From: Cyclobacteriaceae bacterium
Lineage (GTDB): Bacteria > Bacteroidota > Bacteroidia > Cytophagales > Cyclobacteriaceae
Reading direction: 5' to 3'
DNA: 34,862 nucleotides
Assembly (NCBI GenBank): GCA_021604845.1
Contig: BQJT01000018.1
Span: forward strand, 1 to 34,862
Shown here: one piece after another, positions 2,019 through 29,066 of the stretch
How the letters are laid out: every line of letters starts with the position of its first letter
Position numbering within the stretch: position 1 is the stretch's first letter
The notes under the pieces: model-generated
Told to the model about the DNA's origin: nothing
The model's input: the letters and a program-made list of their open reading frames with translations, nothing else
Databases searched by the model: none
Translations under genes and position numbers: made by a program

Positions 2019-3983
2019 ATGGAAAAGGTATTAATGGATAAGGCAACCTCGATTCGAAATATAAAATATAAAGAAGTTGGCAGGGACGAATCAACCCGGT
2101 TCGAGAGGATTCACACTGAAATATTTGAAAGTTCATCAGATGCATCATTGGCCATTGCAGGAGAAATAGCCCTGCTTATCAGGGAAAAGGCTGCGAAAGG
2201 AGAAAAATGTGTGCTGGGACTAGCTACCGGCTCTTCACCTTTGGGTGTATACAAGGAGTTGGTGCGATTGCATAAAGAAGAAGGGCTGAGTTTTGCCAAT
2301 GTGGTTACCTTCAACCTGGATGAATACTACCCCATGGACCCCAAGGCATTGCAAAGCTATATCCGGTTTATGGGTGAAAATCTTTTTAATCATATTGATA
2401 TTTTAGAAGAGAATATTAACATTCCCGACGGTACATTGGATCAGGATCTGGTTTCCGTTTTCTGTGCTGATTACGAAAAAAAGATCGATGATTACGGAGG
2501 ACTTGACTTGCAGATACTGGGTATAGGACGAACCGGGCATATTGGATTTAATGAACCGGGCTCTCATTATAATTCTCTAACCAGAATGGTGACACTGGAT
2601 CATCTGACGAAAACTGATGCTGCCAGTGATTTCTTTGGAATGGATAATGTGCCTCGGCGTGCTATTACCATGGGGGTAGGTACCATATTCAAAGCGAAAC
2701 GGATTTTGCTGATGGCATGGGGAGAAGGCAAGTCGGCGATAATCAGGGAGACTATCGAAGAAAAAATAAGTGATGCTGTCCCCGCCAGCTACCTACAGAA
2801 CCATCCTAAAACTACTATCGTTCTTGACACCGCTGCTGCAGCGGAACTGGTTAGGATAAAAACACCCTGGAGAGTTGGTTCATGTACATGGGATGATCCA
2901 TTGTTAAAACAGGCGGTGATCTGGCTCAGCCAAAAATTACAGAAGCCAATTTTGAAGTTAACCGACCGTGATTATATGGACAACGGTATGGATGAACTGA
3001 TTGCAGAGCACGGTCCTGCATACAATATTAATATAAAGATGTTCAATGTGCTTCAGCACACCATTACCGGCTGGCCAGGAGGCAAACCAGGCGCGGATGA
3101 CACCTATCGACCTGAGCGGGCAGACCCGGCGAAGAAAAGAGTAGTGATATTCAGCCCGCATCCTGATGATGATGTGATTTCAATGGGCGGGACTTTTATC
3201 AGGCTGGTGGATCAGGGGCATGATGTTCATGTTGCCTATCAGACGTCTGGAAACATTGCGGTGTTCGATGAGGATGTAGTGCGTTTTGCAGACTTCTTTA
3301 AAGATTTTAACGCCGTATACAGCGCAGGAAACCGTGAAAGTAAGCGGTTTTATGAGGAGGTAGTAAGCAACGTAAGTAACAAACAACCCGGAGATATTGA
3401 CACTCCGGTAGTGCAGAAGATCAAGGGTTTGATACGTAGGGGAGAAGCCAAGGCGGCCTGCCGCTATATTGGCATTGGTGATGATAACGTGCATTTCATG
3501 GATATGCCGTTCTACGAAACAGGATTGATTCAAAAGCAGCCTATTGGGGAGGAAGATGTAAAGATTGTGATGGATTTACTGCAGGAGGTAAAACCACATC
3601 AGATCTATGCCGCAGGTGATTTGTCAGATCCACACGGAACTCACAGGGTATGTCTGGATGCCATTTTTCAGGCAGTTGAACGTTTGAAACCGCAAAGCTG
3701 GATGCAGGATTGCTGGTTGTGGCTATATCGTGGAGCCTGGCAGGAATGGGGTATTGAAGAAATTGAAATGGCAGTTCCTTTAAGTCCTGGGGAGTTAATG
3801 CGAAAGAGAAAAGCCATCTTCAAGCACCAGTCTCAAAAGGACTCAGCGTTATTCCCGGGAACAGATATGAGGGAATTTTGGCAAAGGGCGGAAGACAGGA
3901 ACAGAAGCACTGCGGGGATTTATGATAAGCTGGGACTTCCGGAGTATGAGGCCATGGAAGCATTTAAGCGATGGCACTTTTAG
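2019..3983 (+). CDS. NagB-like glucosamine-6-phosphate deaminase fused to PIG-L/LmbE deacetylase domain
   Basis: A 654-residue two-domain protein, against about 260-270 residues for ordinary NagB. Residues about 30-290 are NagB-like: A-T-G-S-S-P phosphate loop (69-74), N-L-D-E-Y-Y with Asp101, and G-I-G-R-T-G-H-I-G-F-N-E-P (168-180). In classical NagB this last motif reads G-x-G-x-D-G-H-I; here the catalytic Asp is Thr172, while His174 and Glu179 remain. Residues about 373-600 are PIG-L/LmbE-like, with zinc motif H381-P-D-D-D and a second H539-G-T-H542. The PIG-L family removes N-acetyl groups from GlcNAc-type substrates. Long NagB-like fusions of this type are known in Bacteroides. The gene is probably an operon partner of the ROK kinase and ends at a strong hairpin. 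Deaminase activity is uncertain because of the Thr substitution; the deacetylase site looks intact. Confidence 0.88.
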   Translation: MEKVLMDKATSIRNIKYKEVGRDESTRFERIHTEIFESSSDASLAIAGEIALLIREKAAKGEKCVLGLATGSSPLGVYKELVRLHKEEGLSFANVVTFNLDEYYPMDPKALQSYIRFMGENLFNHIDILEENINIPDGTLDQDLVSVFCADYEKKIDDYGGLDLQILGIGRTGHIGFNEPGSHYNSLTRMVTLDHLTKTDAASDFFGMDNVPRRAITMGVGTIFKAKRILLMAWGEGKSAIIRETIEEKISDAVPASYLQNHPKTTIVLDTAAAAELVRIKTPWRVGSCTWDDPLLKQAVIWLSQKLQKPILKLTDRDYMDNGMDELIAEHGPAYNINIKMFNVLQHTITGWPGGKPGADDTYRPERADPAKKRVVIFSPHPDDDVISMGGTFIRLVDQGHDVHVAYQTSGNIAVFDEDVVRFADFFKDFNAVYSAGNRESKRFYEEVVSNVSNKQPGDIDTPVVQKIKGLIRRGEAKAACRYIGIGDDNVHFMDMPFYETGLIQKQPIGEEDVKIVMDLLQEVKPHQIYAAGDLSDPHGTHRVCLDAIFQAVERLKPQSWMQDCWLWLYRGAWQEWGIEEIEMAVPLSPGELMRKRKAIFKHQSQKDSALFPGTDMREFWQRAEDRNRSTAGIYDKLGLPEYEAMEAFKRWHF

Positions 3984-15257: not shown

Positions 15258-18200
15258 ATGGGGTTAAGAATTTTAAAAACTGGGTTGCTAATATGTTTGC
15301 TATTTGCTACTAGCTATGGGCAACAAGTCACAATATCTGAACAATCTCAATTGTTTAAAACATATTCGTTCGGGGACCCTAACCCGATACCTGTATTAAC
15401 CTCTAACACCAAAATTTATCCCTATCATAAGTTCGACGGTTATGACACCCAGGCTAAGGATGCATCCTGGAAAGTTGTTACCCTGGAGAACGACTATATC
15501 CAGGTATTTGTGCTGCCAGAAGTTGGAGGGAAAGTGTGGGGAGGGATCGATAAATCTACCGGACAGGAGTTTATTTACAGGAATGAAGTGATGAAATTTC
15601 GTAATATTTCTATGCGAGGACCATGGACCTCCGGCGGTATTGAATTCAATTTTGGGATTATCGGGCATCACCCATCCACTGCCACTCCAGTAGATTATCT
15701 TATTCGGGAAAATGAAGATGGTAGCGTTAGTTGCATTGTTGGAAATATAGACCTTCCTTCAAGAACGCAGTGGAGAGTAAATATCACGCTCTTACCAGAT
15801 AAGTCTTATTTCGAAACCAAAGCGTTGTGGTACAACCCCACTCCGAATACCCAGAGTTACTACAACTGGATGACCGCTGCTGCCTTTGCTACTGAAGACC
15901 TGGAATTTTTTACACCGGGCAACCAATACTTGATGCATAGTGGAGAGGCCAAATCATGGCCCTATGATAACGAACGGCATAATCTGGCCAAATATTCAGA
16001 GAATAATTTTGGAGGGAGCAAATCCTATCACGTTGTAGGCGAGTACAATGACTTTTTTGGAGGTTATTTCCATAATGACAAATACGGGTTCGGACACTGG
16101 TCTACTTATGAGGAAATGCCAGGACAAAAACTTTGGATATGGGCGTTGTCCAGGTCAGGGGGAATTTGGGAGGATTTATTAACTGACAATGATGGTCAAT
16201 ATATAGAATTCCAGGCGGGCCGTCTTCTTGATCAGTATAGTCCTGGCAACCATAAAAATCCCATCACTCAAGTGCCTTTCGGTTCATATTATACCGACAG
16301 TTGGCGAGAATTATGGTTTCCCTATAACGAAATTGGAGGTTTGTCAGAAGTTAGTCCTGTAGCGGCCATGCACGTGGTGCGTACAAACGGAACGGTTACC
16401 ATCGGAATTAACGGACTAGCCAATGTCAGTGGTACCCTAATAGCTAAAACCGCTGATAAAGAACTGTTAAGAAAGGAGATTACCCTGACCCCATCCGAAG
16501 TCCTGTTGGAAACCATATCCCTGCCATATTCAACAGAGATTGAGGTAATGGTAAAAGAAATGGATCTTCACTACAAAAGTGGCGCCACTGAAAATAACCT
16601 GAAGAGGCCCTTTGAGTACCCTGAATTCACACAGGTCAATGCTTCAACTGAACTTTATAGCCAGGGGTTGGAAGATCTGCAGTTTCGTGAATTCAGAAAG
16701 GCACGTATTGCTTTTGAACAGTGCCTGGAGCTGGATCCGACGCATGTTGAAGCGCGTGCAGCATTGGCAGAAATTTTCTTTAGAAATGCTGAATACGATT
16801 TCGCATTGGAACAGGTGAATACGGCGCTTCAACTGGATACCTACAGACCCTATAGCAATTATGTTGCTGGTAACATCTACCGGGCCCAGGGGGATTACTC
16901 AAATGCCATGGAATCATTTGGTTGGGCTGCGCGCTCATTGGACTTTCGATCGGCAGCTTATACCCAAATGTCGGAACTCGCATTCGCAAAGGGCAGGGTA
17001 TTGGAAGCCGAGGATCTTGCAAATAAGGCATTGAGTTTTAATACCGCAAACATAAGTGCACTACAGTTGTTAACCGTGTTATATCGGCGAACAAACCGCC
17101 CGGATAAGGCGAAGAACACATTGTCCAGGTTAATGGAGATCGACCCGCTAAACCATCTGGGACATTTTGAGCTGTCGAAATATCATACGGATTACCATCT
17201 GGAAGAACATTTTCGCAGTGAATTGGTTGAACAAACTTACCTGGAGCTGGCAATTAGTTACTTTAATATGGGTCAATACCCGGAAGCCAAAGAGATTCTA
17301 TCAGGAACAGATCATGTTGTGGCCTGGTTGTGGATGGCATATTTGGAACGAGACAACCAGGATGAATCAACCCGCTGGTTGGAGCAGGTTAAAAAAAGTA
17401 AGGTTGAGTTCGTATTCCCGTTTAGGAGAGAAACAATAGCAGTATTGGAATGGGCAGAACGTACCGATAACCACTGGAAGTTCAAGTATTATTTGGGTTT
17501 GGTTTATTGGGGGAAAGACCGCTTATCGGAAGCCGCCCGATTGATGAACATGTACCGGTTTAATCCGGATGAAGTAGTTTTCTATCTGTCCAGGGCCTTA
17601 TTGCTAAACGAATTTGATGGCACAGACCAGTTGCAGGACCTCGAGAAAGCCATGAACCTTGATTCTGATAATTGGCGTGTCTGGAGTAATATGGTGGAAT
17701 ATTATTCAAAACAGGGGAACTACGAAAAGGAGTTGGAGCTGGCAGATATGGCATTTAAGAAGTGGCCTGAAAATTACGACCTTGGATTGTCTTATGCCAG
17801 ATCACTGCTTCATAATAAGCAGTATAGTAAGTGTATAAGCCAATTGAAAAAATTCCAGATTTTGCCATTTGAAGGCGCTGGAGGCAGCAGGGTTATTTAC
17901 GAACGGGCTTATCTTGGCGAAGCTATGAGAGTGATGGAGCGTGGTCAATATAATAAGGCCATAACGCTGCTGGAGGATGCCAAGAAGTGGCCTGAAAATC
18001 TGGGAGTAGGTAAGCCTTATGCTCCTGAGCAAAGACAGATTGATTATTTACAAGGAATTTGTTACCAACAACTGGGTCAAACTTCCAATCAGGTGGTAAG
18101 TGAAAGGGCCCTGGAGGAGTATACTTTAAAGTATTACAAAAATGGCCACCCAGCTAATATTTTGGGAATATTGAGTCTTAGCTCAAACAACAAAGCTAAA

Positions 18201-18368
18201 GCTGATGCCATCATTAGTGAACTTGAAGATTCTGATAACCTGTCCAACCAGTGGGTTGTCGCCCAGTATAAATCGGATGAAACTGAAATCATGCGTCTGT
18301 CACCGGAAATAAATAGAAATGATCCCACCGGTTATGAGTTGTTAAAACAAATGCTTCAACTAAAGTAA
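15258..18368 (+). CDS. Secreted DUF5107 and TPR-repeat protein
   Basis: A 1036-residue protein with a signal peptide (likely cleavage after S-Y-G21, before Q-Q) and no lipobox, so probably periplasmic. Residues about 45-330 match DUF5107, a beta-rich region rich in aromatic residues (V-L-P-E-V-G-G-K-V-W-G-G near 86-96, then G-G-I-E-F-N-F-G, G-F-G-H-W-S-T). It resembles a galactose-mutarotase-like sugar-binding fold. From about 465 to the end there are tetratricopeptide repeats (Y-S-Q-G-L-E-D-L-Q-F-R-E-F-R-K-A and later copies), a protein-interaction scaffold. It starts the long catabolic operon; the RraA gene begins 4 bp after its stop. No enzyme activity can be assigned from the sequence. 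Carbohydrate binding or isomerisation is plausible. Confidence 0.88.
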   Translation: MGLRILKTGLLICLLFATSYGQQVTISEQSQLFKTYSFGDPNPIPVLTSNTKIYPYHKFDGYDTQAKDASWKVVTLENDYIQVFVLPEVGGKVWGGIDKSTGQEFIYRNEVMKFRNISMRGPWTSGGIEFNFGIIGHHPSTATPVDYLIRENEDGSVSCIVGNIDLPSRTQWRVNITLLPDKSYFETKALWYNPTPNTQSYYNWMTAAAFATEDLEFFTPGNQYLMHSGEAKSWPYDNERHNLAKYSENNFGGSKSYHVVGEYNDFFGGYFHNDKYGFGHWSTYEEMPGQKLWIWALSRSGGIWEDLLTDNDGQYIEFQAGRLLDQYSPGNHKNPITQVPFGSYYTDSWRELWFPYNEIGGLSEVSPVAAMHVVRTNGTVTIGINGLANVSGTLIAKTADKELLRKEITLTPSEVLLETISLPYSTEIEVMVKEMDLHYKSGATENNLKRPFEYPEFTQVNASTELYSQGLEDLQFREFRKARIAFEQCLELDPTHVEARAALAEIFFRNAEYDFALEQVNTALQLDTYRPYSNYVAGNIYRAQGDYSNAMESFGWAARSLDFRSAAYTQMSELAFAKGRVLEAEDLANKALSFNTANISALQLLTVLYRRTNRPDKAKNTLSRLMEIDPLNHLGHFELSKYHTDYHLEEHFRSELVEQTYLELAISYFNMGQYPEAKEILSGTDHVVAWLWMAYLERDNQDESTRWLEQVKKSKVEFVFPFRRETIAVLEWAERTDNHWKFKYYLGLVYWGKDRLSEAARLMNMYRFNPDEVVFYLSRALLLNEFDGTDQLQDLEKAMNLDSDNWRVWSNMVEYYSKQGNYEKELELADMAFKKWPENYDLGLSYARSLLHNKQYSKCISQLKKFQILPFEGAGGSRVIYERAYLGEAMRVMERGQYNKAITLLEDAKKWPENLGVGKPYAPEQRQIDYLQGICYQQLGQTSNQVVSERALEEYTLKYYKNGHPANILGILSLSSNNKAKADAIISELEDSDNLSNQWVVAQYKSDETEIMRLSPEINRNDPTGYELLKQMLQLK

Positions 18369-18372
18369 GTGT

Positions 18373-19053
18373 ATGGATAAGATTTGGGACTCAAACTCAC
18401 AACTATTTGAATCCATAAAAAAGAATTTGTTTTCTGCGGTAATAGGAGACGTTATGGACAAAATCGGCCTACGTCATCAATTTCTACCTGCTAGAATCCA
18501 ACCTTTGTCAGATCAGATGGTAGTAGTGGGCAGTGCAATGCCGGTTTTAGTTGAAAACACCGAATATGATCCTGACATGCCTGTCGACCAGGCGTATGGC
18601 TTGCTTTTTAGTGCACTGGACGACCTGAAAGCTGATGAGGTTTACCTGTGTACCGGAGCCGATCCCAGCTATGCACTTTGGGGAGAATTGATGAGTACCC
18701 GTGCTATTCAACTAAAAGCGGCTGGGGCAGTGGTGGATGGATATACCAGAGATACTCCGGGAATTTTAAAACTTAATTTCCCTACTTTTTCATACGGTAG
18801 GTATGCGCAAGACCAGGCGTTTCGGGGAAAGGTGGTTGACTTTCGTACTTCAATTAATATTCAAGGAGTAGCGGTACAGCCAGGCGATATAGTATTTGGT
18901 GACCTGGAAGGCGTCTGTATAATTCCTCATACCCATAAACAAGAGGTCATCGAGTTGGCATTGGAAAAGGTGAAGGGCGAACATCTGGTTAGAAAAGCAC
19001 TGGAATCAGGAATGAGCGCTTCGGAAGCTTTTAAAAACTTTGGTATTATGTAA
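18373..19053 (+). CDS. RraA-family (HMG/CHA aldolase-like) protein, probable 2-keto acid aldolase
   Basis: A 226-residue cytosolic protein of the RraA/4-hydroxy-4-methyl-2-oxoglutarate aldolase family. The hallmark block is complete: G104-E-L-M-S-T-R-A, then A-A-G-A-V-V-D122-G-Y-T-R126-D127. In the aldolases of this family the R-D pair binds the 2-keto acid and a divalent metal, and it is intact here, unlike a pure RNase E inhibitor role would require. G-D-L-E-G-V-C-I-I-P near 176-185 is also typical. It sits 4 bp after the DUF5107 gene and overlaps the SDR gene by one base. With two dehydrogenases and a dehydratase in the same operon, cleavage of a 2-keto-3-deoxy or diketo sugar acid to pyruvate is the most likely role; the substrate is inferred. 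Confidence 0.88.
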   Translation: MDKIWDSNSQLFESIKKNLFSAVIGDVMDKIGLRHQFLPARIQPLSDQMVVVGSAMPVLVENTEYDPDMPVDQAYGLLFSALDDLKADEVYLCTGADPSYALWGELMSTRAIQLKAAGAVVDGYTRDTPGILKLNFPTFSYGRYAQDQAFRGKVVDFRTSINIQGVAVQPGDIVFGDLEGVCIIPHTHKQEVIELALEKVKGEHLVRKALESGMSASEAFKNFGIM

Positions 19054-19847
19054 TGGAAGACCTTAGAGGGAAAAAAATTCTGGTTACCGGTGCGGGCGGA
19101 GTTGGTGTAGGTGGAGGTATATGCCAGGCGCTGGATCGATTTGGTGCAACAATCATTGTAAATGAGATTAACTTAGATAAGGCTGTATCTGCAGCTGGTA
19201 AATATACCAATGCTATCCCTGTTCAGGCAGATATTGGTGATGGCGGGCAGATCGAGTCTATGTTCCAAAAAATTGCCGGTGAAGTTGGGATTATCGATGG
19301 ATTGGTGAATAATGCGGGCGTAGGGCTCAGCAAAGTGGCCCATGAAGCCAGTGAGGATGACTTTGACCGGTTGTATGACATTGATATCAAGGGAGTCTGG
19401 CAAGTATCCAAAGCCTTTGTTAACCAATTGTTAAAAGCAGGTAAAAGGGGTAATATCGTCAATATCTCTTCTGTAAATGCCCTGGCTACCATGTCAAGGT
19501 ATGCCCTCTATGCCAGTGCCAAATCTGCAGTGGAAGGATTAACCACGGGTATGGCAGTAGAGTTGGGTACGCACAATATAAGGGTAAACGCCGTAGCCCC
19601 TGGCTTGGTTAAAGCAGAGCAGAATTATGATCTGGTTAAAACATGGTCTGACCATCCCGATCAATGGATGAAGGAGTTTCCTTATGATCAGCAGGCTATA
19701 CCCGAGGACATTAATCCGGTTGAAGTAGGAAATGCGGTGGCTTTTCTACTTTCAGAAATGAGTAGTGCCGTAACTGGACAGACCTTGTATGTTGACAAAG
19801 GAACAACCAGTTTGATATTCAATAGATTTAGCACAGAAAGGAAATAG
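19053..19847 (+). CDS. SDR-family NAD(P)-dependent dehydrogenase
   Basis: A 264-residue classical short-chain dehydrogenase/reductase, cytosolic. The dinucleotide loop reads T12-G-A-G-G-V-G-V-G-G-G-I, slightly longer in glycines than the usual T-G-x-x-x-G-I-G. N-N-A-G is at 86-89, and the catalytic triad S140, Y153 and K157 (Y-A-S-A-K) is complete. The C-terminus (V-T-G-Q-T-L-Y-V-D-K-G) is typical. Its ATG overlaps the TAA of the RraA gene (TAATG), so the two are co-translated. The likely job is oxidation of a sugar, sugar acid or keto-deoxy acid. The cofactor cannot be fixed with confidence. Confidence 0.93.
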   Translation: MEDLRGKKILVTGAGGVGVGGGICQALDRFGATIIVNEINLDKAVSAAGKYTNAIPVQADIGDGGQIESMFQKIAGEVGIIDGLVNNAGVGLSKVAHEASEDDFDRLYDIDIKGVWQVSKAFVNQLLKAGKRGNIVNISSVNALATMSRYALYASAKSAVEGLTTGMAVELGTHNIRVNAVAPGLVKAEQNYDLVKTWSDHPDQWMKEFPYDQQAIPEDINPVEVGNAVAFLLSEMSSAVTGQTLYVDKGTTSLIFNRFSTERK

Positions 19848-19860
19848 AAGTTAGCAAATA

Positions 19861-20991
19861 TTGAAGATAAAACACATAACATGCTTTGAGGTGATAGTAC
19901 CCGCTAAGCCAGGAACTATATCCAGTAAGGGCCTTGACAAGCCACTTCATATGCTTCCGGTGGGAGCAAAATCGGGGTGGAGCGTCCAGTTTGATCAGCT
20001 TCCGAAGATTGTACTAAGACTTGAGTTATCAAACGGGGTGGTTGGTTGGGGTGAGCTCTATCGCGATCATGACTGGCGGCGAGTTGAAGATATTATCGGT
20101 GTTTTACTGGGAAGAGAGTTAACAGATCTTACCCTTCAACAATTACCTTTCACTTTTTGCCGGGAATACGACGGGTTCGAATGCGCAATCTGGGATGCTT
20201 ATGCAAAGGCCCACAATATGCGGGTAGTTGATTTATTAGGCGGGCCTGTGAGAGACCAGGTAAAAGTAGGTGCCTGGTCCAGCCACCGGGAAGCAGATGA
20301 TGTGGCGAAACTGGTGACTGGTTTTTTAGACCAGGGTTTTGGGTGTATTAAATTTAAAAGCGATTTGGAAGATGATGTAATTAGCTGGTGCCGGACTATT
20401 GATGAAAAAGCTCCGGGAATGCAGGTAATTATTGACCCGAATCAAAGGTGGGAAAATGCCTTCGAGGTACGTAAGCGCCTGGATGAGTTAAAAGAGATTG
20501 GGAATGTACTGTGTCTGGAGGACCCTATTCCTCGCTGGCAACTCAGTGAGTACGCCGCATTAAGACAATATAGCGCGGTACCCATTGTCCGGCACATATC
20601 TATGCCATATGTTCTTCAGGGACAAAGGATTGAAGACGCTATACAATGCATCCAGCTATCAGCAGTTGACGGTTTTAACTTTAATGGAGGCCTGGCTAAT
20701 TTCCAGAAGCTGGACCATATTGCCGATGCTGCTGGCCTGTCGTGCTGGCATGGTTCGGAAATCGATCTGGGAATACTGGAAGCCATGTATGTACATTCTT
20801 CAGCAGCCGCGGCCTCCTGCACCTGGCCCGGTGATATCTTTGGGAGCATGATCCGGGAGCATGACCTGTTATCTAAACCACTGAATATTCAACCCCCGTT
20901 TGTGAGCCTGCCTGCAGGAACGGGTCTTGGGGTAGAACCTGACTTAGCGGCAATCGAACATTACCTTATTGGTAAAAAAGAATATAAATAA
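19861..20991 (+). CDS. Enolase-superfamily (mandelate racemase/muconate lactonizing) acid-sugar dehydratase-like enzyme
   Basis: A 376-residue cytosolic enzyme of the MR/MLE branch. Members abstract the alpha-proton of a carboxylate, commonly dehydrating sugar acids to 2-keto-3-deoxy acids. Visible active-site residues, spaced much as in mandelate racemase, are K164-F-K166, metal ligands D192 (I-I-D-P-N-Q) and E220 (C-L-E-D-P-I), and the D270/H297 dyad. The third metal position, normally G-E or D-E after the V-P-I strand, reads P-I-V-R-H245-I-S, so the acidic ligand is absent. The start is TTG (19861). The next in-frame ATG is at residue 31, inside the first strand region, so TTG is preferred. 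The gene is 13 bp after the SDR gene. It is more probably a dehydratase than a racemase, from context. Confidence 0.87.
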   Translation: MKIKHITCFEVIVPAKPGTISSKGLDKPLHMLPVGAKSGWSVQFDQLPKIVLRLELSNGVVGWGELYRDHDWRRVEDIIGVLLGRELTDLTLQQLPFTFCREYDGFECAIWDAYAKAHNMRVVDLLGGPVRDQVKVGAWSSHREADDVAKLVTGFLDQGFGCIKFKSDLEDDVISWCRTIDEKAPGMQVIIDPNQRWENAFEVRKRLDELKEIGNVLCLEDPIPRWQLSEYAALRQYSAVPIVRHISMPYVLQGQRIEDAIQCIQLSAVDGFNFNGGLANFQKLDHIADAAGLSCWHGSEIDLGILEAMYVHSSAAAASCTWPGDIFGSMIREHDLLSKPLNIQPPFVSLPAGTGLGVEPDLAAIEHYLIGKKEYK

Positions 20992-20998
20992 GCGAACC

Positions 20999-21868
20999 AT
21001 GAAAACAAACCCCTTCTCCGATACTGACCGCCGGGCTATTTGGGAAATGCTGGTGGAGAGAGATATTAAGGCCTTTATTGCCGCTGACTGGAGTATGGTG
21101 GCCGATGATTTTATTGAACAGAACTTCATGGGCATTGACGGAGGTAAGCAGGGTAACCCGGATGGTTGGGTGCTGAACTTTCCGGATTTGGAATCATATA
21201 AAATTGAATGGTTACGCCAGTCCAGGGAGTTTGGAGAAACAAAATGGGGGGAAGATGTTGAAACCGCTCTTTTCAGAGTTACTCATTTAAGAGATATTGA
21301 GGTTGTTGATAATTCTGCGCTGGTTCACAAGAAATTCATCGGCAAGATTACTAAACTCAATGGCGAAGATGTACTTTTTGAATGGCAGACCCTCTACAGG
21401 TGCCGTAAACTGGAAGGTGTCTGGAAAATAGCAGGATTTACAGGTTATATCCCTAATTTTTCTGGTAATGCAAATGCTTCTCTGCAAAAAATTACCGTAC
21501 CGGAAAACGCATCCCAGCATAAAACGGCCGGACCGTATTCGCCGGTTTTAGAGATAAACACCGGCAAACTTGTGGTTATCTCCGGCCAGGCCGCATTGGA
21601 TCCTGCTGGTAAGTTGATAGGCGATACTATCGAGGAACAAACTACCGCAACCATGGAAAACTGCCGGGCGCAACTAGTGACTGCCGGTTGCAGTTTGGAT
21701 GATGTGTTTAAAGTAAACGTCTATCTAACAGACCTTAAAAACTGGCCGCGTTTTAATGTAGTGTATAAGGATTTCTTTACTAAAACGCTTCCGGTAAGGA
21801 CAGCAGTGGGTACGGATCTTATCGAAGGGTTATTAGTTGAGATTGAAATGTGGGCAGTTAAATCATGA
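20999..21868 (+). CDS. Fusion of SnoaL-like (NTF2 fold) domain and RidA domain
   Basis: A 289-residue protein with two recognisable parts. Residues about 8-153 look like a SnoaL/NTF2-type alpha+beta barrel (D-W-S-M-V-A-D-D-F early; W-Q-T-L-Y-R-C-R and G-V-W-K-I-A-G-F near the end, as in DUF4440/SnoaL domains). Residues about 164-289 are a RidA/YjgF domain with P-V-R267-T-A-V-G and E281, matching the Arg105 and Glu120 that RidA uses to hydrolyse enamines and imines to keto acids; V-N-V-Y-L-T-D is also typical. The frame can extend upstream to a TTG at 20969 inside the dehydratase gene. ATG 20999 is preferred, 7 bp after that stop. It overlaps the creatininase-like gene by 4 bp (ATGA). Confidence 0.85.
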   Translation: MKTNPFSDTDRRAIWEMLVERDIKAFIAADWSMVADDFIEQNFMGIDGGKQGNPDGWVLNFPDLESYKIEWLRQSREFGETKWGEDVETALFRVTHLRDIEVVDNSALVHKKFIGKITKLNGEDVLFEWQTLYRCRKLEGVWKIAGFTGYIPNFSGNANASLQKITVPENASQHKTAGPYSPVLEINTGKLVVISGQAALDPAGKLIGDTIEEQTTATMENCRAQLVTAGCSLDDVFKVNVYLTDLKNWPRFNVVYKDFFTKTLPVRTAVGTDLIEGLLVEIEMWAVKS

Positions 21869-22620
21869 TCTGGGACCAGCTTACTTCCGAAAATATCAAA
21901 GGCTTGGATCACAGTATTCCTGCAATTTTACCAGTGGCTGCCACTGAACAACATGGGGCCCATCTCCCGGTGGCTACTGACCGGTTGATTGCCGAGCATT
22001 TCGCTTTTCAAACGCATACCGCTGTTCCCGAGCAGGTTTTGATTCTGCCTTGCGTAGGTATTGGTTGTTCCAATCACCATATGGATTTTAGTGGGACTCT
22101 AACCCTGACACACCATACTTTCCTTAAGCAGGTCGAAGAAATTATCCAATCGGTGTTTCATCATGGTTTCACCAAAATCATAATATTGAACAGCCATGGA
22201 GGTAATCAGGGGGCAGGGCAGGTATTGGTTGAAAAACTGGGCCATCAATATCCCGATTGTGATGTGATTATGACGTCCTGGTGGCAGATTGCCAGAAATG
22301 AATTGATGGATATTACCGAAACAGGCTTTGGAGGTGTCGGTCATGCAGGGGAGTTTGAAACATCTCTGATGATGCTGATAGCCCCTGAGTTGGTTCATCA
22401 TCAGAAGATCACCTCTGGTAAGAATCAGTCAGTTTATAATTGGGCGAAGGCGGACCTGTTACACGGACCTGCTGCATCCTGGTATCGCAGTATGAAACAG
22501 CTTACACCAAATGGGATATTTGGTGAACCTGGTGCGGCTTCTGTGGAAAAAGGAAAACACATCACTGAAACAGTGGTTAGAAATATATTAAACATTATAC
22601 AAGACCTGCAACCCAGGTAA
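21865..22620 (+). CDS. Creatininase-family metal-dependent amidohydrolase/hydrolase
   Basis: A 251-residue cytosolic protein of the creatininase family (PF02633). The metal-binding residues are all visible: P-V-A-A-T-E28-Q-H30-G-A-H-L-P, D39, N-S-H111-G-G-N, and G-H-A-G-E163-F-E-T-S. The family opens cyclic amides (creatinine) and includes FAPy deformylase and MftE, so the chemistry is hydrolysis of a C-N bond or a similar ring. In this operon it could open a lactam or lactone formed by the first SDR; this is inference. It is translationally coupled to the SnoaL-RidA gene through ATGA and ends 21 bp before the second SDR. Confidence 0.9.
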   Translation: MIWDQLTSENIKGLDHSIPAILPVAATEQHGAHLPVATDRLIAEHFAFQTHTAVPEQVLILPCVGIGCSNHHMDFSGTLTLTHHTFLKQVEEIIQSVFHHGFTKIIILNSHGGNQGAGQVLVEKLGHQYPDCDVIMTSWWQIARNELMDITETGFGGVGHAGEFETSLMMLIAPELVHHQKITSGKNQSVYNWAKADLLHGPAASWYRSMKQLTPNGIFGEPGAASVEKGKHITETVVRNILNIIQDLQPR

Positions 22621-22641
22621 AGCTTATAAATATTAGAATAA

Positions 22642-23403
22642 ATGAATATTGACCACAGATTTAAAGGGCAGATAGCCATAGTTGCGGGAGGTGCACGAGG
22701 TATCGGCGGTGCAATTGCCTCCAGATTAGCTGCTGAAGGCGCCCGGGTAGCAATTCTTGACATAAACCAGGAGGCACTTAGGCGGCAGGTGGAAGAGATA
22801 AATCGCCAGGGAAATCAGGCATTTGGCTTTGATTTGGATTTAACCGACCAGGAGGCATTGGTGGAATGTTTACAGACTGTATTTAATTGGCATCAGCGAA
22901 TAGATGTGCTGGTAAATTGTGTTGGAATAATTGGACCAACGGGGATGTCCATCGTGGATTATCCCCTGGACCAGTTTGAACTGGTGATGAAAGTCAATGT
23001 AAACAGTGCTTTTTTACTTACTAAATACACCATCCCTTATATGCAGTCACGCATGTACGGACGGATTTTGCACGTGGCAAGCATAGGCGGCAAGGATGGC
23101 AATCCTAACATGGTTGGCTACGCTGCCAGTAAGTCTGGGTTGATTGGATTGATTAAGGGTGTCGGAAAGGAATTTGCACAATCGGGGATTACCATTAATG
23201 GTTTGGCTCCTGCAGTAATTGTCACGGAAATGAATAAAGACACAGCCCCTGAGGTGTTGAATTACATGAAAGATAAAATCCCGATGAAGCGCTTGGGTAC
23301 CGTAGAAGAAGCCGCCGCAATATCCTGCTGGATCGTTTCACAAGAGGCCAGCTTCAACACCGGTTTCGTGTTCGATCTTTCAGGAGGAAGGGCGGTTTAT
23401 TAA
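22642..23403 (+). CDS. SDR-family oxidoreductase (second dehydrogenase of the operon)
   Basis: A 253-residue classical SDR. It has A-G-G-A-R-G-I-G-G-A-I (15-25), D40 at the end of the second strand (favouring NAD over NADP), N92-C-V-G in place of N-N-A-G, and the catalytic S147, Y160 and K164 (Y-A-A-S-K). The C-terminus F-V-F-D-L-S-G-G-R-A-V-Y is of the 'D-x-S-G-G-R' type that I associate with SDRs in sugar-acid clusters. It may oxidise the 2-keto-3-deoxy acid before aldol cleavage, or the sugar at the start of the pathway; the order of the two SDRs cannot be told from the sequence. A 98-bp gap follows, the longest inside this operon. Confidence 0.93.
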   Translation: MNIDHRFKGQIAIVAGGARGIGGAIASRLAAEGARVAILDINQEALRRQVEEINRQGNQAFGFDLDLTDQEALVECLQTVFNWHQRIDVLVNCVGIIGPTGMSIVDYPLDQFELVMKVNVNSAFLLTKYTIPYMQSRMYGRILHVASIGGKDGNPNMVGYAASKSGLIGLIKGVGKEFAQSGITINGLAPAVIVTEMNKDTAPEVLNYMKDKIPMKRLGTVEEAAAISCWIVSQEASFNTGFVFDLSGGRAVY

Positions 23404-24352: not shown

Positions 24353-27300
24353 GTGTTAAAATCTCAGTCTACAAAAAGGGCTATTGTTTTGCTGGTAGTT
24401 TGCCTGCTGATAACGTCGTGTTCGGTAGATATCCCGTCACCGGTGTCCAAGGCTTATGAAGAACTGCCTGAGCGGGTAGACTTTAACTTTGACGTAAGGC
24501 CAATTTTGTCTGATCGTTGTTTCTCCTGTCATGGACCAGATGAGGAGGCCAGGAAGGCGGAACTTCGGCTGGACTTGCCGGAAGGTGCTGAAAAAGTTAT
24601 TAAGGCCGGTAATTTGACCCGCAGTAGTTTTGTTCATCGGATTCTCTCTGATGATCCCGAAGAAATGATGCCCCCACCTGAATCGAATTTAGCGCTGACT
24701 GATAAGGAACGGGCTATTTTGATTAAATGGGTAAAGCAAGGTGCTACTTGGAAGAATCACTGGGCCTTTGTGGCTCCCGAGGCGGTAGACCCGCCGGATT
24801 TAGTGAATCCTCAATGGACGGTGCACAATGAAATTGACCGGTTTATTTTTAAGCGGCTGGAATCCGAAGGGTTGGCGCCGAGTCCTGAAGCAGATAAGGA
24901 GCGGCTGTTGCGCAGGGTTACCCTGGATTTAACCGGGCTCCCACCTACACTCGACGAGATCGATGCGTTTTTAGCCGACCAACAGGTAAATGCTTATGAA
25001 AAAGTGGTAGACCGGCTGCTTCAGTCAAGCGCATGTGCCGAAAGACTTACCATGGATTGGCTTGACGTTTCGCGGTATGCCGATTCGCATGGAATGCACG
25101 CGGACGGATGGCGTGAAATGTGGCCCTGGCGTGATTGGGTAATCAGCGCTTTTGAAGAGAATATGCCTTATGATCAGTTTGTCACCTGGCAGTTAGCTGG
25201 AGATCTTCTTCCAGATGCCAGTAAGGATCAAATACTTGCAACCGCATTTAACAGGAACCACCCGATGACTGCTGAGGGTGGGATTATTGATGAGGAGTTC
25301 CGGTTAAATTACGTGTTTGATCGTACAGAAACTGCCGGAACGGCTTTTTTGGGATTAACCATGAATTGTGCCCGCTGCCACGATCATAAGTTTGATCCTA
25401 TAAAGCAGAAAGATTATTACCAGCTTACCGGCTTCTTTAACAATATTAAGGAATTGGGAATGACCGGAGATGACGGCAATTTCGGTCCTATGCTATCCCT
25501 TATGGATGGGGAGACCGAGGACATTCTCGCCAGCCTTGAAGAACGTATTGCCGAAACCAATCAACAGATAGAAGCTGTAACTGACGAACTGCAGACTAAA
25601 TCTCCGGAATCCGTAACAGAAAGATGGTCACATCTTAATTCCAGAGTGGGATACTTTCCGCTGGAAACCATCCGTGACCGGCGCCAGACGGACTTAGAGG
25701 AACCTCAAAAACAGGAAACACCGGTAAAAGGAAAGATACTGGATGACAACAAATATTGCTATTCTCCTGGTACCCCCCAACTGGTTGAGGGCAAGGTAGG
25801 GAAAGGATTAAAATTCAGCGGGGAGTACGATGAGTTATACATTACCAATTTTCCAAATCTGGAATGGACAGAAGCATTTTCCGGTGGCATGTGGATGAAT
25901 ACCACTAAGAAGGTAAAGGATAAAACCCAGACTTTGATGGGTACCTCTGGACAAAAGAATAATTTCTGGCGTGGCTGGGATATTTATTTGGACCAATCCA
26001 ACCGGCTTAACTTCAGGTTTATCCACTCTTTGCCCCACAATTACATTCATATCGTCTCACAGGATTCTCTCAATACCGACCAGTGGTACCATGTTTTTTT
26101 TACTTATGATGGTTCCGGTAATGCTGCCGGCGCCAGGCTGTATATAAACGGAATTCCCATAACCAATAATGTGCGGTTTGACCGATTATATAAGTCAGCC
26201 AAAACGGTTGATTATGGATCTGATAAACCGAACGAGCGGGCCATACGGGTTGCCAAGAGTTACCGGGCTTTCACCGGGGAAGACGGTGTTTTTAAGGGAG
26301 TTATCGATGAGATCGATCTCTATAATACGGATTTAACTCCGTTAGAAGTAGCTAAGCTCTTTCAGGTTCGTTCCGGAGATGAAATCAAGCAGGCGAATTG
26401 GGCTGCATTGAACAGGAACCACTGGGTGTATCGTCAGCCGGCAATGAAGGCATTGCGCGAACAATTAAAAGAATTGCGAAATAGCTGGCTGGAGAACATC
26501 AACCCGGTGGTGGAGGTTATGGTTATGGAGGAATTGTCCAAGCCAAGAAGCACTTACGCCTACAGGAGAGGTATTTACAGCAACCCGATGTATCAGGTGG
26601 ATCCGGGGACCCCTGAAATTCTGGGAAAATTTCCGGATGAATTTCCCAGGAACCGCCTGGGTCTGGCACAATGGCTGTTTAGCCAGAAAAACCCACTAAC
26701 TGCCAGGGTAACAGTAAATAGGTATTGGCAGTTACTTTTTGGCAACGGACTGGTTAAAACTCCTCAGGATTTTGGAGTACAGGGGGCCTTGCCTTCCCAT
26801 CCTGAACTATTGGATTGGTTGGCTGTGCATCTGCGAAATAATCAATGGGATATCAAAGGCTTGCTGAAAGTCATGGTAATGTCACATACTTACCGGCAAT
26901 CCAGCAGCGTATCGCCCCAACAATTGGAGCGCGATCCTGATAATGTTCTATTAGCAAGGGGAGCCAGCTATCGGCTATCAGCCGAAATGATCAGGGATAA
27001 TGCCTTGGCATCCAGTGGTTTATTGGTTCATCAGTTAGGAGGGATGAGCGTGCGTCCTTATCAGCCTGAAGGGCTTTGGATTGATAAGGGTAATTTTTCA
27101 CAAAAGCTGCTTCGCTACAAAGTTACTCCCGGAGACAGCCTTTATCGAAGAAGTATGTATACCTTCATTAAAAGAACCTCGCCCCATCCTGCTATGATCG
27201 CATTTGATGCGCCTAACAGGGATGTTTGCACGGTTCAGCGGGAACGGACCAATACGCCGTTACAGGCGCTGGTGTTGATGAATGATCCGCAATTTGTAGA

Positions 27301-27601
27301 GTGTTCCAGAGTACTAGCTGAACGGATCCAGTTGGAGTTCGAAGATTCATTAGAGAATCAGATCGTACAGGCTTTCAGACTGGTGACAGGAAGAAAACCG
27401 GAATCAGAAGAAGTTGACATCTTTGAGGATCTGTATCATGGGCAACTTAAGAAGTTCCAGCAGCACCCGAATTTTGCCGACAGTTTATTGGCGGTTGGAC
27501 AATATCCTAATAACCCAACCTTGAGCAAGACCCGGACCGCAGCGCTGACAGTAGTTGCCAGTACCATGATCAATCACGATGAGGCCTATATGAAGAGATA
27601 G
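24353..27601 (+). CDS. PSCyt1-DUF1549-LamG-DUF1553 lipoprotein with CxxCH motifs
   Basis: A 1082-residue exported lipoprotein (lipobox I-T-S-C23), with a GTG start at 24353. Domains in order: planctomycete-type cytochrome C (PSCyt1, about 44-130) with C56-F-S-C59-H and M105-M-P-P-P, which could supply an axial Met; DUF1549/PSCyt2 (about 160-370), with a second C339-A-R-C342-H in the context D-H-K-F-D-P; a LamG/concanavalin-like insertion (about 430-665); and DUF1553/PSD1 (about 740-1075), ending with the conserved T-N-T-P-L-Q-A-L-V-L-M-N-D-P segment. It is paired with DUF1501, as is usual in Planctomycetes and Verrucomicrobia. It probably acts outside the cytoplasm in an oxidation or glycan-related step, but the family's activity is not established. 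Confidence 0.92.
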   Translation: MLKSQSTKRAIVLLVVCLLITSCSVDIPSPVSKAYEELPERVDFNFDVRPILSDRCFSCHGPDEEARKAELRLDLPEGAEKVIKAGNLTRSSFVHRILSDDPEEMMPPPESNLALTDKERAILIKWVKQGATWKNHWAFVAPEAVDPPDLVNPQWTVHNEIDRFIFKRLESEGLAPSPEADKERLLRRVTLDLTGLPPTLDEIDAFLADQQVNAYEKVVDRLLQSSACAERLTMDWLDVSRYADSHGMHADGWREMWPWRDWVISAFEENMPYDQFVTWQLAGDLLPDASKDQILATAFNRNHPMTAEGGIIDEEFRLNYVFDRTETAGTAFLGLTMNCARCHDHKFDPIKQKDYYQLTGFFNNIKELGMTGDDGNFGPMLSLMDGETEDILASLEERIAETNQQIEAVTDELQTKSPESVTERWSHLNSRVGYFPLETIRDRRQTDLEEPQKQETPVKGKILDDNKYCYSPGTPQLVEGKVGKGLKFSGEYDELYITNFPNLEWTEAFSGGMWMNTTKKVKDKTQTLMGTSGQKNNFWRGWDIYLDQSNRLNFRFIHSLPHNYIHIVSQDSLNTDQWYHVFFTYDGSGNAAGARLYINGIPITNNVRFDRLYKSAKTVDYGSDKPNERAIRVAKSYRAFTGEDGVFKGVIDEIDLYNTDLTPLEVAKLFQVRSGDEIKQANWAALNRNHWVYRQPAMKALREQLKELRNSWLENINPVVEVMVMEELSKPRSTYAYRRGIYSNPMYQVDPGTPEILGKFPDEFPRNRLGLAQWLFSQKNPLTARVTVNRYWQLLFGNGLVKTPQDFGVQGALPSHPELLDWLAVHLRNNQWDIKGLLKVMVMSHTYRQSSSVSPQQLERDPDNVLLARGASYRLSAEMIRDNALASSGLLVHQLGGMSVRPYQPEGLWIDKGNFSQKLLRYKVTPGDSLYRRSMYTFIKRTSPHPAMIAFDAPNRDVCTVQRERTNTPLQALVLMNDPQFVECSRVLAERIQLEFEDSLENQIVQAFRLVTGRKPESEEVDIFEDLYHGQLKKFQQHPNFADSLLAVGQYPNNPTLSKTRTAALTVVASTMINHDEAYMKR

Positions 27602-27617
27602 TTATAAGTTTTGAATT

Positions 27618-29066
27618 ATGCACTGCGATCACCAGGATAAAAACTATACCCGCCGGGATTTTCTCACCAGAACCAGCTTAGGACTGGGAGCTGTAGCCAT
27701 GGGTTCCTTTCTAGACCCGATGGGACTGTTTGGGAAATCCACTGACCCCGGAAACAAAGGTATATTAGGCGGCCCGCATTTTTCTCCAAAAGCAAAAAGG
27801 GTAATCTACCTATTCCAAAGCGGGGGGCCATCCCATCTTGACTTGTTTGATTACAAACCGTTGCTTAATAAGATGAATGGGGAGGATCTGCCTGAGAGTG
27901 TAAGGCAAGGGCAGCGGCTGACCGGTATGACTTCCGGTCAGGCTTCATTTCCATTGGCTGGTTCTCAATTTGGGTTTAAGCAGTACGGGGAATCAGGCGC
28001 CTGGGTAAGTGAATTGATGCCACATACGGCCAGGATTGTTGACGAGCTATGTTTTATCAAATCCATGTATACCGAGGCTATCAATCACGATCCTGCGGTT
28101 ACCTTTATTCAAACCGGTTCCGAGCTGCCAGGCAGACCCTCCATTGGATCCTGGTTTAGCTATGGTTTGGGGTCGGATAATGAAAACCTGCCGGCATTTG
28201 TGGTACTGGTAACCAAAAATAAATTCGGGCAGCCGCTTTATGCACGGCTGTGGGGAAACGGATTTTTGCCTTCTCAGCATCAGGGGGTACAATTTAGGGC
28301 AGGTAAAAACCCCGTTCTCTACCTGAACAACCCTCCCGGTGTAACTGAATCGGTTAGAAGAGACCAATTGGACCATTTACAGCAGCTAGAGCAGTTAAAT
28401 TTCAAGGATGTGGGTGATCCTGAAATTATGGCTCGTATGTCCCAATATGAAATGGCCTACCGCATGCAGACTTCGGTTCCTGAAATTATGGATACCAGTT
28501 CCGAACCGGACCGCATATATGATATGTATGGGCCGGACAGTAGAAACCCCGGAACCTATGCCGCTAATTGTTTGCTGGCCAGAAGGCTGGCTGAGCGGGA
28601 TGTTAAGTTTATCCAGTTATATCATCAAGGCTGGGACCAGCATGGAAACCTGCCTAAGGCTATAGGAACCCAATGCCTTGAAACCGATCAGGCTACTGCA
28701 GCGTTAATCACGGACCTGAAGCAAAGGGGATTGCTGGAAGATACACTGGTTATTTGGGGTGGGGAGTTCGGGCGGACCAGCTATTCTCAAGGTCAGTTAA
28801 CCAGCACCAATTATGGCCGGGATCATCACCCTAGGTGTTTTACGGTTTTTATGGCCGGGGCTGGTGTTAAAAAAGGCTATATACTGGGGGAAACTGATGA
28901 CTTCGGTTACAGTATTATTAAGGACCCCGTACACGTTCACGATTTTCAGGCCACCCTGATGCATCTGCTGGGGATTGATCATGAAAGATTAACTTTTAAA
29001 TTTCAGGGCAGGCGATACAGGCTGACAGATGTACATGGAGAACTGGTGAAGCAAATTCTCGCATAG
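27618..29066 (+). CDS. DUF1501 protein with Tat signal
   Basis: A 482-residue protein with a twin-arginine signal (T-R12-R13-D-F-L, then a hydrophobic stretch), so it is exported folded. The DUF1501 family lies in the alkaline phosphatase/sulfatase-like superfamily. Metal-site-like segments are visible: Q-S-G-G-P-S-H-L-D-L-F-D near the N-terminus, H-Q-G-W-D-Q-H-G-N near 337-345, and W-G-G-E-F-G-R-T followed by N-Y-G-R-D-H-H-P-R. It starts 16 bp after the DUF1553 lipoprotein and ends 16 bp from the convergent glpD gene. The pair probably works as a unit in the periplasm; the reaction is unknown. No clear terminator hairpin was seen in the short gap. Confidence 0.92.
   Translation: MHCDHQDKNYTRRDFLTRTSLGLGAVAMGSFLDPMGLFGKSTDPGNKGILGGPHFSPKAKRVIYLFQSGGPSHLDLFDYKPLLNKMNGEDLPESVRQGQRLTGMTSGQASFPLAGSQFGFKQYGESGAWVSELMPHTARIVDELCFIKSMYTEAINHDPAVTFIQTGSELPGRPSIGSWFSYGLGSDNENLPAFVVLVTKNKFGQPLYARLWGNGFLPSQHQGVQFRAGKNPVLYLNNPPGVTESVRRDQLDHLQQLEQLNFKDVGDPEIMARMSQYEMAYRMQTSVPEIMDTSSEPDRIYDMYGPDSRNPGTYAANCLLARRLAERDVKFIQLYHQGWDQHGNLPKAIGTQCLETDQATAALITDLKQRGLLEDTLVIWGGEFGRTSYSQGQLTSTNYGRDHHPRCFTVFMAGAGVKKGYILGETDDFGYSIIKDPVHVHDFQATLMHLLGIDHERLTFKFQGRRYRLTDVHGELVKQILA

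Follow-up and report, generated by a model that had tools for sequence, protein, structure and literature searches.

A RidA domain fused to a predicted NTF2-fold domain in a conserved operon, with a possible role in amino-sugar-acid catabolism

RidA proteins are usually regarded as a general clean-up of reactive imines. Some are covalently extended, as in the tandem RidA fusion (3x-RidA), in which the partner is another RidA domain; the available part of the same paper ties the RidA arginine to imine hydrolysis (PMC4433059). RidA also appears in a defined pathway. The ong cluster, which serves N-acetylglucosaminate in oxidative chitin use, comprises RpiR, GH20, a sodium-solute symporter, a fold-III PLP deaminase and a RidA protein (PMC9537276). 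In this route, as far as the available text describes it, OngB deacetylates and the fold-III PLP enzyme OngC deaminates to 2-keto-3-deoxygluconate. The RidA protein OngD is essential in vivo for growth on N-acetylglucosaminate, its role being stated there as unknown, and in vitro GlcN1A is deaminated by OngC and not by OngD alone (PMC9537276). In related chemistry, glucosaminate-6-phosphate elimination goes via an enamine/imine, a mutant releases the enamine, and RidA-type toxicity is discussed in the available part of that work (PMC9529869).

Here we describe a gene in the window, a 34,862-nucleotide stretch of Cyclobacteriaceae DNA, whose product, like the tandem fusions, is a covalently extended RidA, but whose partner domain is of an unrelated fold. 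The gene at 20999–21868 (+) translates as a single frame of 289 residues with zero internal stops, and the opposite strand has many stops. Its ATG at 20999 agrees with the starts of homologues, an alternative TTG at 20969 adding 10 residues. The protein consists of an N-terminal domain of a family without a name (residues 1–153, 20999..21457, +), with an NTF2 fold predicted from an AlphaFold2 model, fold matches and conservation; a linker (residues 154–174, 21458..21520, +), which is variable in the alignment and modelled at low confidence; and a RidA (PF01042) domain (residues 175–287, 21521..21859, +). The uninterrupted frame bears out an earlier, sequence-only reading, which had placed an NTF2-fold half and a RidA half in one frame. 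That reading had also raised the possibility of a sequencing error joining two genes. An uninterrupted frame encoding this fusion occurs in 14 genomes or records spanning Bacteroidota, Verrucomicrobiota and Actinomycetota (G000, G001, G002, G013, G020, G227, G473, G495, G502, G530, G540 and G1168; an Opitutales MAG, L013; and Embleya sp. NBC_00888, an actinomycete, at 49.7% over residues 2–287), and this recurrence rules out sequencing error, chance fusion and assembly artefact. No published description of an NTF2-fold plus RidA fusion was found among the literature matches listed, which does not imply that none is in print.

The RidA half is complete, as had been claimed. PF01042 matches residues 175–287 with an E-value of 6.6e-27 and 94.4 bits (cut-off 27.3), covering profile positions 6–120 of 121. 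The domain belongs to the RidA superfamily, as it scores above the curated cut-off over its whole length and has both R267 and E281, which pair in an alignment with the conserved arginine and glutamate of P. horikoshii PH0854. In the alignments, the R267 codon (21797..21799, +) is the counterpart of the RidA catalytic arginine (Arg105 in E. coli TdcF numbering) and the E281 codon (21839..21841, +) that of the conserved RidA glutamate, both residues being discussed in the available part of PMC4433059. All 13 fused RidA domains aligned invariantly carry Y180, R267 and E281; the 14th copy (G1168) was found later and left out of this alignment and of the tree. Structure comparison matches the RidA fold with a Z-score of 16.6. 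The fusion therefore has the same C-terminal fold and keeps the same catalytic Arg, Glu and Tyr as the Rid imine deaminases, but it differs from them in its NTF2-fold partner, in its score against TIGR00004, the NCBIfam RidA subfamily (84.2 bits, below the cut-off of 106.25), and in its phylogeny: the fused domains group in a single clade, separate from the 12 unfused RidAs compared (support 100/99, in a tree with long-branch warnings).

The N-terminal half is assigned at the fold level. No Pfam family matches it in the window protein taken as a single sequence, even at E ≤ 10. Among 12 relatives scanned singly, SnoaL_3 matches one (8.2e-5) and DUF4440 three (best 4.1e-4); these are weak matches to what we take to be NTF2-like families. 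A PDB profile search gave E-values of 0.12 and 0.35 only, to a designed cortisol binder and a ‘putative ketosteroid isomerase’ entry. The full-length AlphaFold2 model is the weaker one, with a pLDDT of 72.7 and a pTM of 0.57; its pLDDT drops below 50 at residues 152–181, so that the model does not fix how the two domains sit relative to each other. Because the full-length model returned RidA alone among the fold matches listed, we modelled the N-domain separately from 12 sequences (pLDDT 90.6, pTM 0.85). With this model, Foldseek returned first SgcJ and SgcE6, both enediyne-cluster proteins, then the CaMKII hub and NTF2-like proteins (best E-value 1.5e-6), and VIA-align gave a best Z-score of 13.1 with an rmsd of 3.2 Å over 126 residues (3rob). 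Ketosteroid-isomerase-like proteins and scytalone dehydratase are also among the fold matches, as are the two PDB profile matches, the cortisol binder in the fold search and the putative ketosteroid isomerase in VIA-align. We rejected the reading that the N-terminal half has no NTF2 similarity: sequence searches are empty or weak, yet the fold search gave NTF2-type matches. The earlier label ‘SnoaL-like’ thus stands for the predicted fold and falls for the sequence, since the window protein matches no SnoaL model and the profile support comes from relatives. Residues 1–153 are predicted to share the fold of the SnoaL/NTF2-like superfamily (ketosteroid isomerase-like proteins, scytalone dehydratase, SgcJ and the CaMKII hub), but differ in having no Pfam match and only 8–18% identity to the solved structures listed. 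The N-domain is a separate family without a name, for which a predicted fold and a likely metabolic area can now be given.

The fusion lies inside a run of genes from 15258 to 23403 spaced −4 to 21 bases apart, in the order DUF5107-TPR, RraA, SDR1, ENO, fusion, creatininase and SDR2. Upstream are an RraA/aldolase-like gene for a putative 4-hydroxy-2-oxo-acid aldolase (18373..19053, +; PF03737), the short-chain dehydrogenase gene SDR1 (19053..19847, +; PF13561) and ENO, encoding an enolase-superfamily (MR/MLE) protein and putative sugar-acid dehydratase/epimerase (19861..20991, +; PF13378 and PF02746), which ends 7 bp before the fusion. Downstream, a gene for a creatininase-family metallo-amidohydrolase (21865..22620, +; PF02633, E-value 6.8e-63) overlaps the fusion stop with its start by 4 bp and so directly adjoins it, as previously noted; it is followed by a second short-chain dehydrogenase gene, SDR2 (22642..23403, +; PF13561), which varies among relatives and is present in L027, L028, L029 and L053. 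In a promoter scan of the operon, promoter-like sites were no more numerous than in shuffles (17 versus 18.9). The operon is followed at 24353–29066 by a PSCyt1/PSCyt2/PSD1 plus DUF1501 gene pair, likewise in L027 and L053. Elsewhere in the window, at 2019–3983, one frame combines a glucosamine-6-phosphate isomerase domain with a PIG-L de-N-acetylase domain, adjoining a ROK kinase.

A search for further fusions and their neighbours, suggested by the sequence-only reading, started from the fusion or N-domain sequence and not from the operon. Creatininase lies on one side and ENO on the other in 14 of 14 fusions, and ENO is complete in 13. The five-gene core RraA-SDR1-ENO-fusion-creatininase recurs in three phyla, being found together in L013, L027, L028, L029, L051, L052, L060 and Embleya L043, the last with the order of SDR1 and RraA swapped. 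No RraA match was found within the stretch seen in G013 and G502. SDR1 is seen in part, followed by ENO and creatininase, in both G473, where the contig stops shortly before ENO, and G530, where the stretch read was short. Sodium-solute symporter genes flank the operon in L027 and L013. G227 has all five genes with ENO cut to its first 111 residues, in frame with the fusion. At L024:4599-5810 (G227 C70), ENO residues 1–111 join fusion residues 13–289 at a shared Ala-Ile-Trp stretch, and no second close ENO was found in that genome; the join reflects either a deletion between like codons or a misassembly. The N-domain as such is rare, occurring in 3 of 395 genomes in a phylum sample, 11 of 295 in a family sample, 3 of 395 in a class sample and 2 of 201 within G316's family; these samples overlap.

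In the converse search, a close ENO (E ≤ 1e-60) is present in 12 of 295 family genomes and the fusion in 10 of these; G004, where ENO is a piece at a contig end, is not judgeable. In G498 (L055:2211-5663), RraA and SDR1 are present and ENO is followed by creatininase, but the fusion gene that would separate the two is absent, and the gene is therefore not indispensable there. The link between ENO and the fusion is strong, yet the gene can be lost. The window's genome also has a second, distant creatininase and ENO pair without RidA (L056:3893-6886, G000 C2). A decayed N-domain fragment with stops lies at L026:9582-9785 (G000 C2:54578), where the next frame by eye resembles an integrase piece.

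The fusion is thus real, conserved and operon-bound. It could still be a general housekeeping RidA with a chance N-terminal domain and no dedicated role in the operon, as RidA proteins accept a wide range of imines (PMC4433059, available part) and G498 does without the gene. We consider this very improbable, given that all 14 copies, from three phyla, have ENO and creatininase as neighbours, that the fused domains form a separate clade and that the window's genome has at least three other RidA-domain loci. The core operon in three phyla and these further loci support the earlier proposal of a dedicated rather than housekeeping role. Its more specific parts go beyond this, and we infer only that the N-domain may bind a small molecule and that the RidA domain may hydrolyse the imine of one intermediate.

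RraA, SDR, ENO and creatininase proteins typically belong to sugar-acid or inositol routes. The operon might accordingly break down oxidised inositol or a sugar acid without nitrogen, and the fusion would then be a keto-enol tautomerase in which the NTF2 fold works like ketosteroid isomerase and RidA serves enol chemistry. The creatininase-family protein also scores against IolN (74.5 bits), which suits such a route, as does the content of the operon itself: among ten genes of the region scanned by Pfam there is no GH20, RpiR, PLP enzyme or amino-sugar-specific gene, and of the ong-type set of four the operon has RidA alone. We nevertheless judge this possibility unlikely, since all 13 fused copies aligned retain the arginine and glutamate of RidA and amino-sugar genes surround the standalone N-domains described below. 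The nearest solved relatives of ENO by sequence are chloromuconate cycloisomerases and, more weakly, N-acylamino-acid racemases; an acylated-amine substrate would fit these relatives, which is no proof of one.

The N-domain also occurs without RidA fusion. A scan of genome contigs found 7 N-domain loci, of which 6 encode standalone proteins of ~155 residues in Alphaproteobacteria, and a plasmid collection holds 248 records, mostly from Rhizobium and Sinorhizobium, with the N-domain labelled ‘hypothetical protein’ or not annotated as a gene among the matches listed. Neighbours were read from annotation in 7 of the 248 plasmid records, which were opened along with Embleya (no annotation there). 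A divergently oriented RidA gene directly adjoins the standalone N-domain gene in Maritalea, Xaviernesmea, R. etli, S. meliloti and Qingshengfaniella, and lies ~7 kb away in Nitratireductor. We tried the rhizobial RidA as an orthologue of the fused RidA and found no support, the two falling in separate clades of a tree with long branches. Other neighbours in rhizobia and relatives are GH20 hexosaminidase, MurR/RpiR, SDR, M81, D-TA-type PLP enzymes and sugar transporters. Less closely related N-domains (~30–44% identity to the Xaviernesmea protein) lie beside N-acetylglucosamine kinase in three cases, with nagA in one of these. In Rhizobium sp. T136, an N-domain homologue appears split over two frames beside N-acetylglucosamine kinase (L046:10001-10441) and is probably a pseudogene.

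In two families of Bacteroidota, the N-domain gene sits between NeuB and a gene that we take to be PseG-like, Pfam giving it a weak Epimerase_2 match only (G316, G792 and G685). Each of these N-domain genes (L025:7497-7967, L049:2030-2521 and L061:6086-6556) overlaps NeuB by one base; NeuB was identified by Pfam in G316 and by similarity to the G316 protein in the other two. Such loci are of the nonulosonic-acid cluster type with an extra protein. No RidA was found in the fetched stretch of L016-L019, L025, L045, L046, L048 and L049, so the N-domain is not always partnered with RidA. Recurrence among the standalone loci, as distinct from a comparison with random genes, suggests N-acetylated amino sugars as their common thread.

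These loci also bear on whether the N-domain is a mere scaffold, one that oligomerises RidA in the manner of the CaMKII hub or tethers a partner enzyme and has no substrate of its own. CaMKII hubs are among the best fold matches and the linker is long and variable, as a scaffold would allow. However, the N-domain requires a function of its own because it stands alone in many loci with no RidA nearby, and many tryptophan, tyrosine, aspartate and lysine residues are invariant over 27 members. Fifteen positions are identical in 27 of 27, including W15, D22, W31, F43, W57, Y67, W71, K111, W129, W142, G146 and F147. This alignment joins 13 fused and 14 standalone members chosen to span the set; the split L046, the decayed L023 and the later finds G792 and G1168 stand outside it. 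We regard a pure scaffold as distinctly improbable.

Comparison with the ong cluster links the two kinds of locus. RpiR, GH20, RidA and a D-TA/D-serine-dehydratase-type PLP enzyme are common to ong and the rhizobial standalone loci, and the set of RpiR, GH20, RidA and fold-III PLP enzyme is complete in L014, L041 and L047, although the L041 annotation gives just ‘putative transcriptional regulator’ for the regulator and ‘putative amino acid processing protein’ for the PLP gene. In the stretch seen, L044 lacks GH20 and L042 the PLP gene. Relatives of the window operon share the sodium-solute symporter with ong. Unlike the N-domain loci, ong has no NTF2-fold protein named in the available text of PMC9537276. 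M81 or creatininase would here take the place of OngB, and in the fused operon ENO would take that of the PLP enzyme OngC.

Taken together, these observations favour, at a probability of roughly 0.45, a fusion that is a pathway-dedicated enzyme for a nitrogen-removing step in amino-sugar-acid catabolism. The substrate would be an amino sugar, judging from the neighbours of relatives, and by analogy with the ong, glucosaminate-6-phosphate and RidA-arginine papers (PMC9537276, PMC9529869 and PMC4433059, available parts) the fusion may act on the enamine/imine of an amino-sugar acid. We hypothesize the following order of steps. SDR1 would oxidise the amino sugar or its acid, and the creatininase-family enzyme would open a lactone or remove an N-acyl group. 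ENO would dehydrate the amino-sugar acid, a reaction we infer for this enolase-superfamily member, to a 2-enamine/2-imine. The NTF2-fold domain would hold this sugar-derived intermediate, most likely speed its enamine-to-imine (or enol-to-keto) tautomerisation and pass it on to the RidA domain. Hydrolysis of the imine there would release ammonia and leave a 2-keto-3-deoxy acid for RraA to cleave.

A dedicated amino-sugar role is supported by the 14 fused copies adjoining creatininase and ENO, by a RidA clade that keeps Arg, Glu and Tyr, by the company of standalone N-domains (RidA/GH20/PLP, N-acetylglucosamine kinase, nagA and NeuB/PseG-like genes) and by the ong precedent. Against it stand the fused operon without a PLP enzyme or amino-sugar-specific gene, the G498 operon without the fusion, the paralogous ENO and creatininase of G000 without RidA, and the N-domain loci with no RidA in the fetched stretch. 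A caveat to this model is that in ong, according to the available text of PMC9537276, RidA is not needed for product formation in vitro. A wider reading, speculative and on balance unlikely, is that the N-domain founds a new NTF2-fold enzyme family (tautomerase, epimerase or anomerase of N-acetyl-hexosamine-type intermediates) serving both catabolism and nonulosonic-acid synthesis, and that in the fused operon it would form with RidA a bifunctional enamine-isomerase/imine-hydrolase, through which an enolase-type dehydratase could deaminate amino-sugar acids without PLP.

If RidA truly works inside a fixed operon with a conserved partner domain, this would be a dedicated catalytic use and not clean-up. 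The fusion may also offer a handle on the role of the essential ong RidA, OngD, which is left open in the available text of PMC9537276. Finally, a predicted fold and a likely metabolic context can be assigned to the N-domain, which many plasmid records of Rhizobium and Sinorhizobium list as a ‘hypothetical protein’.
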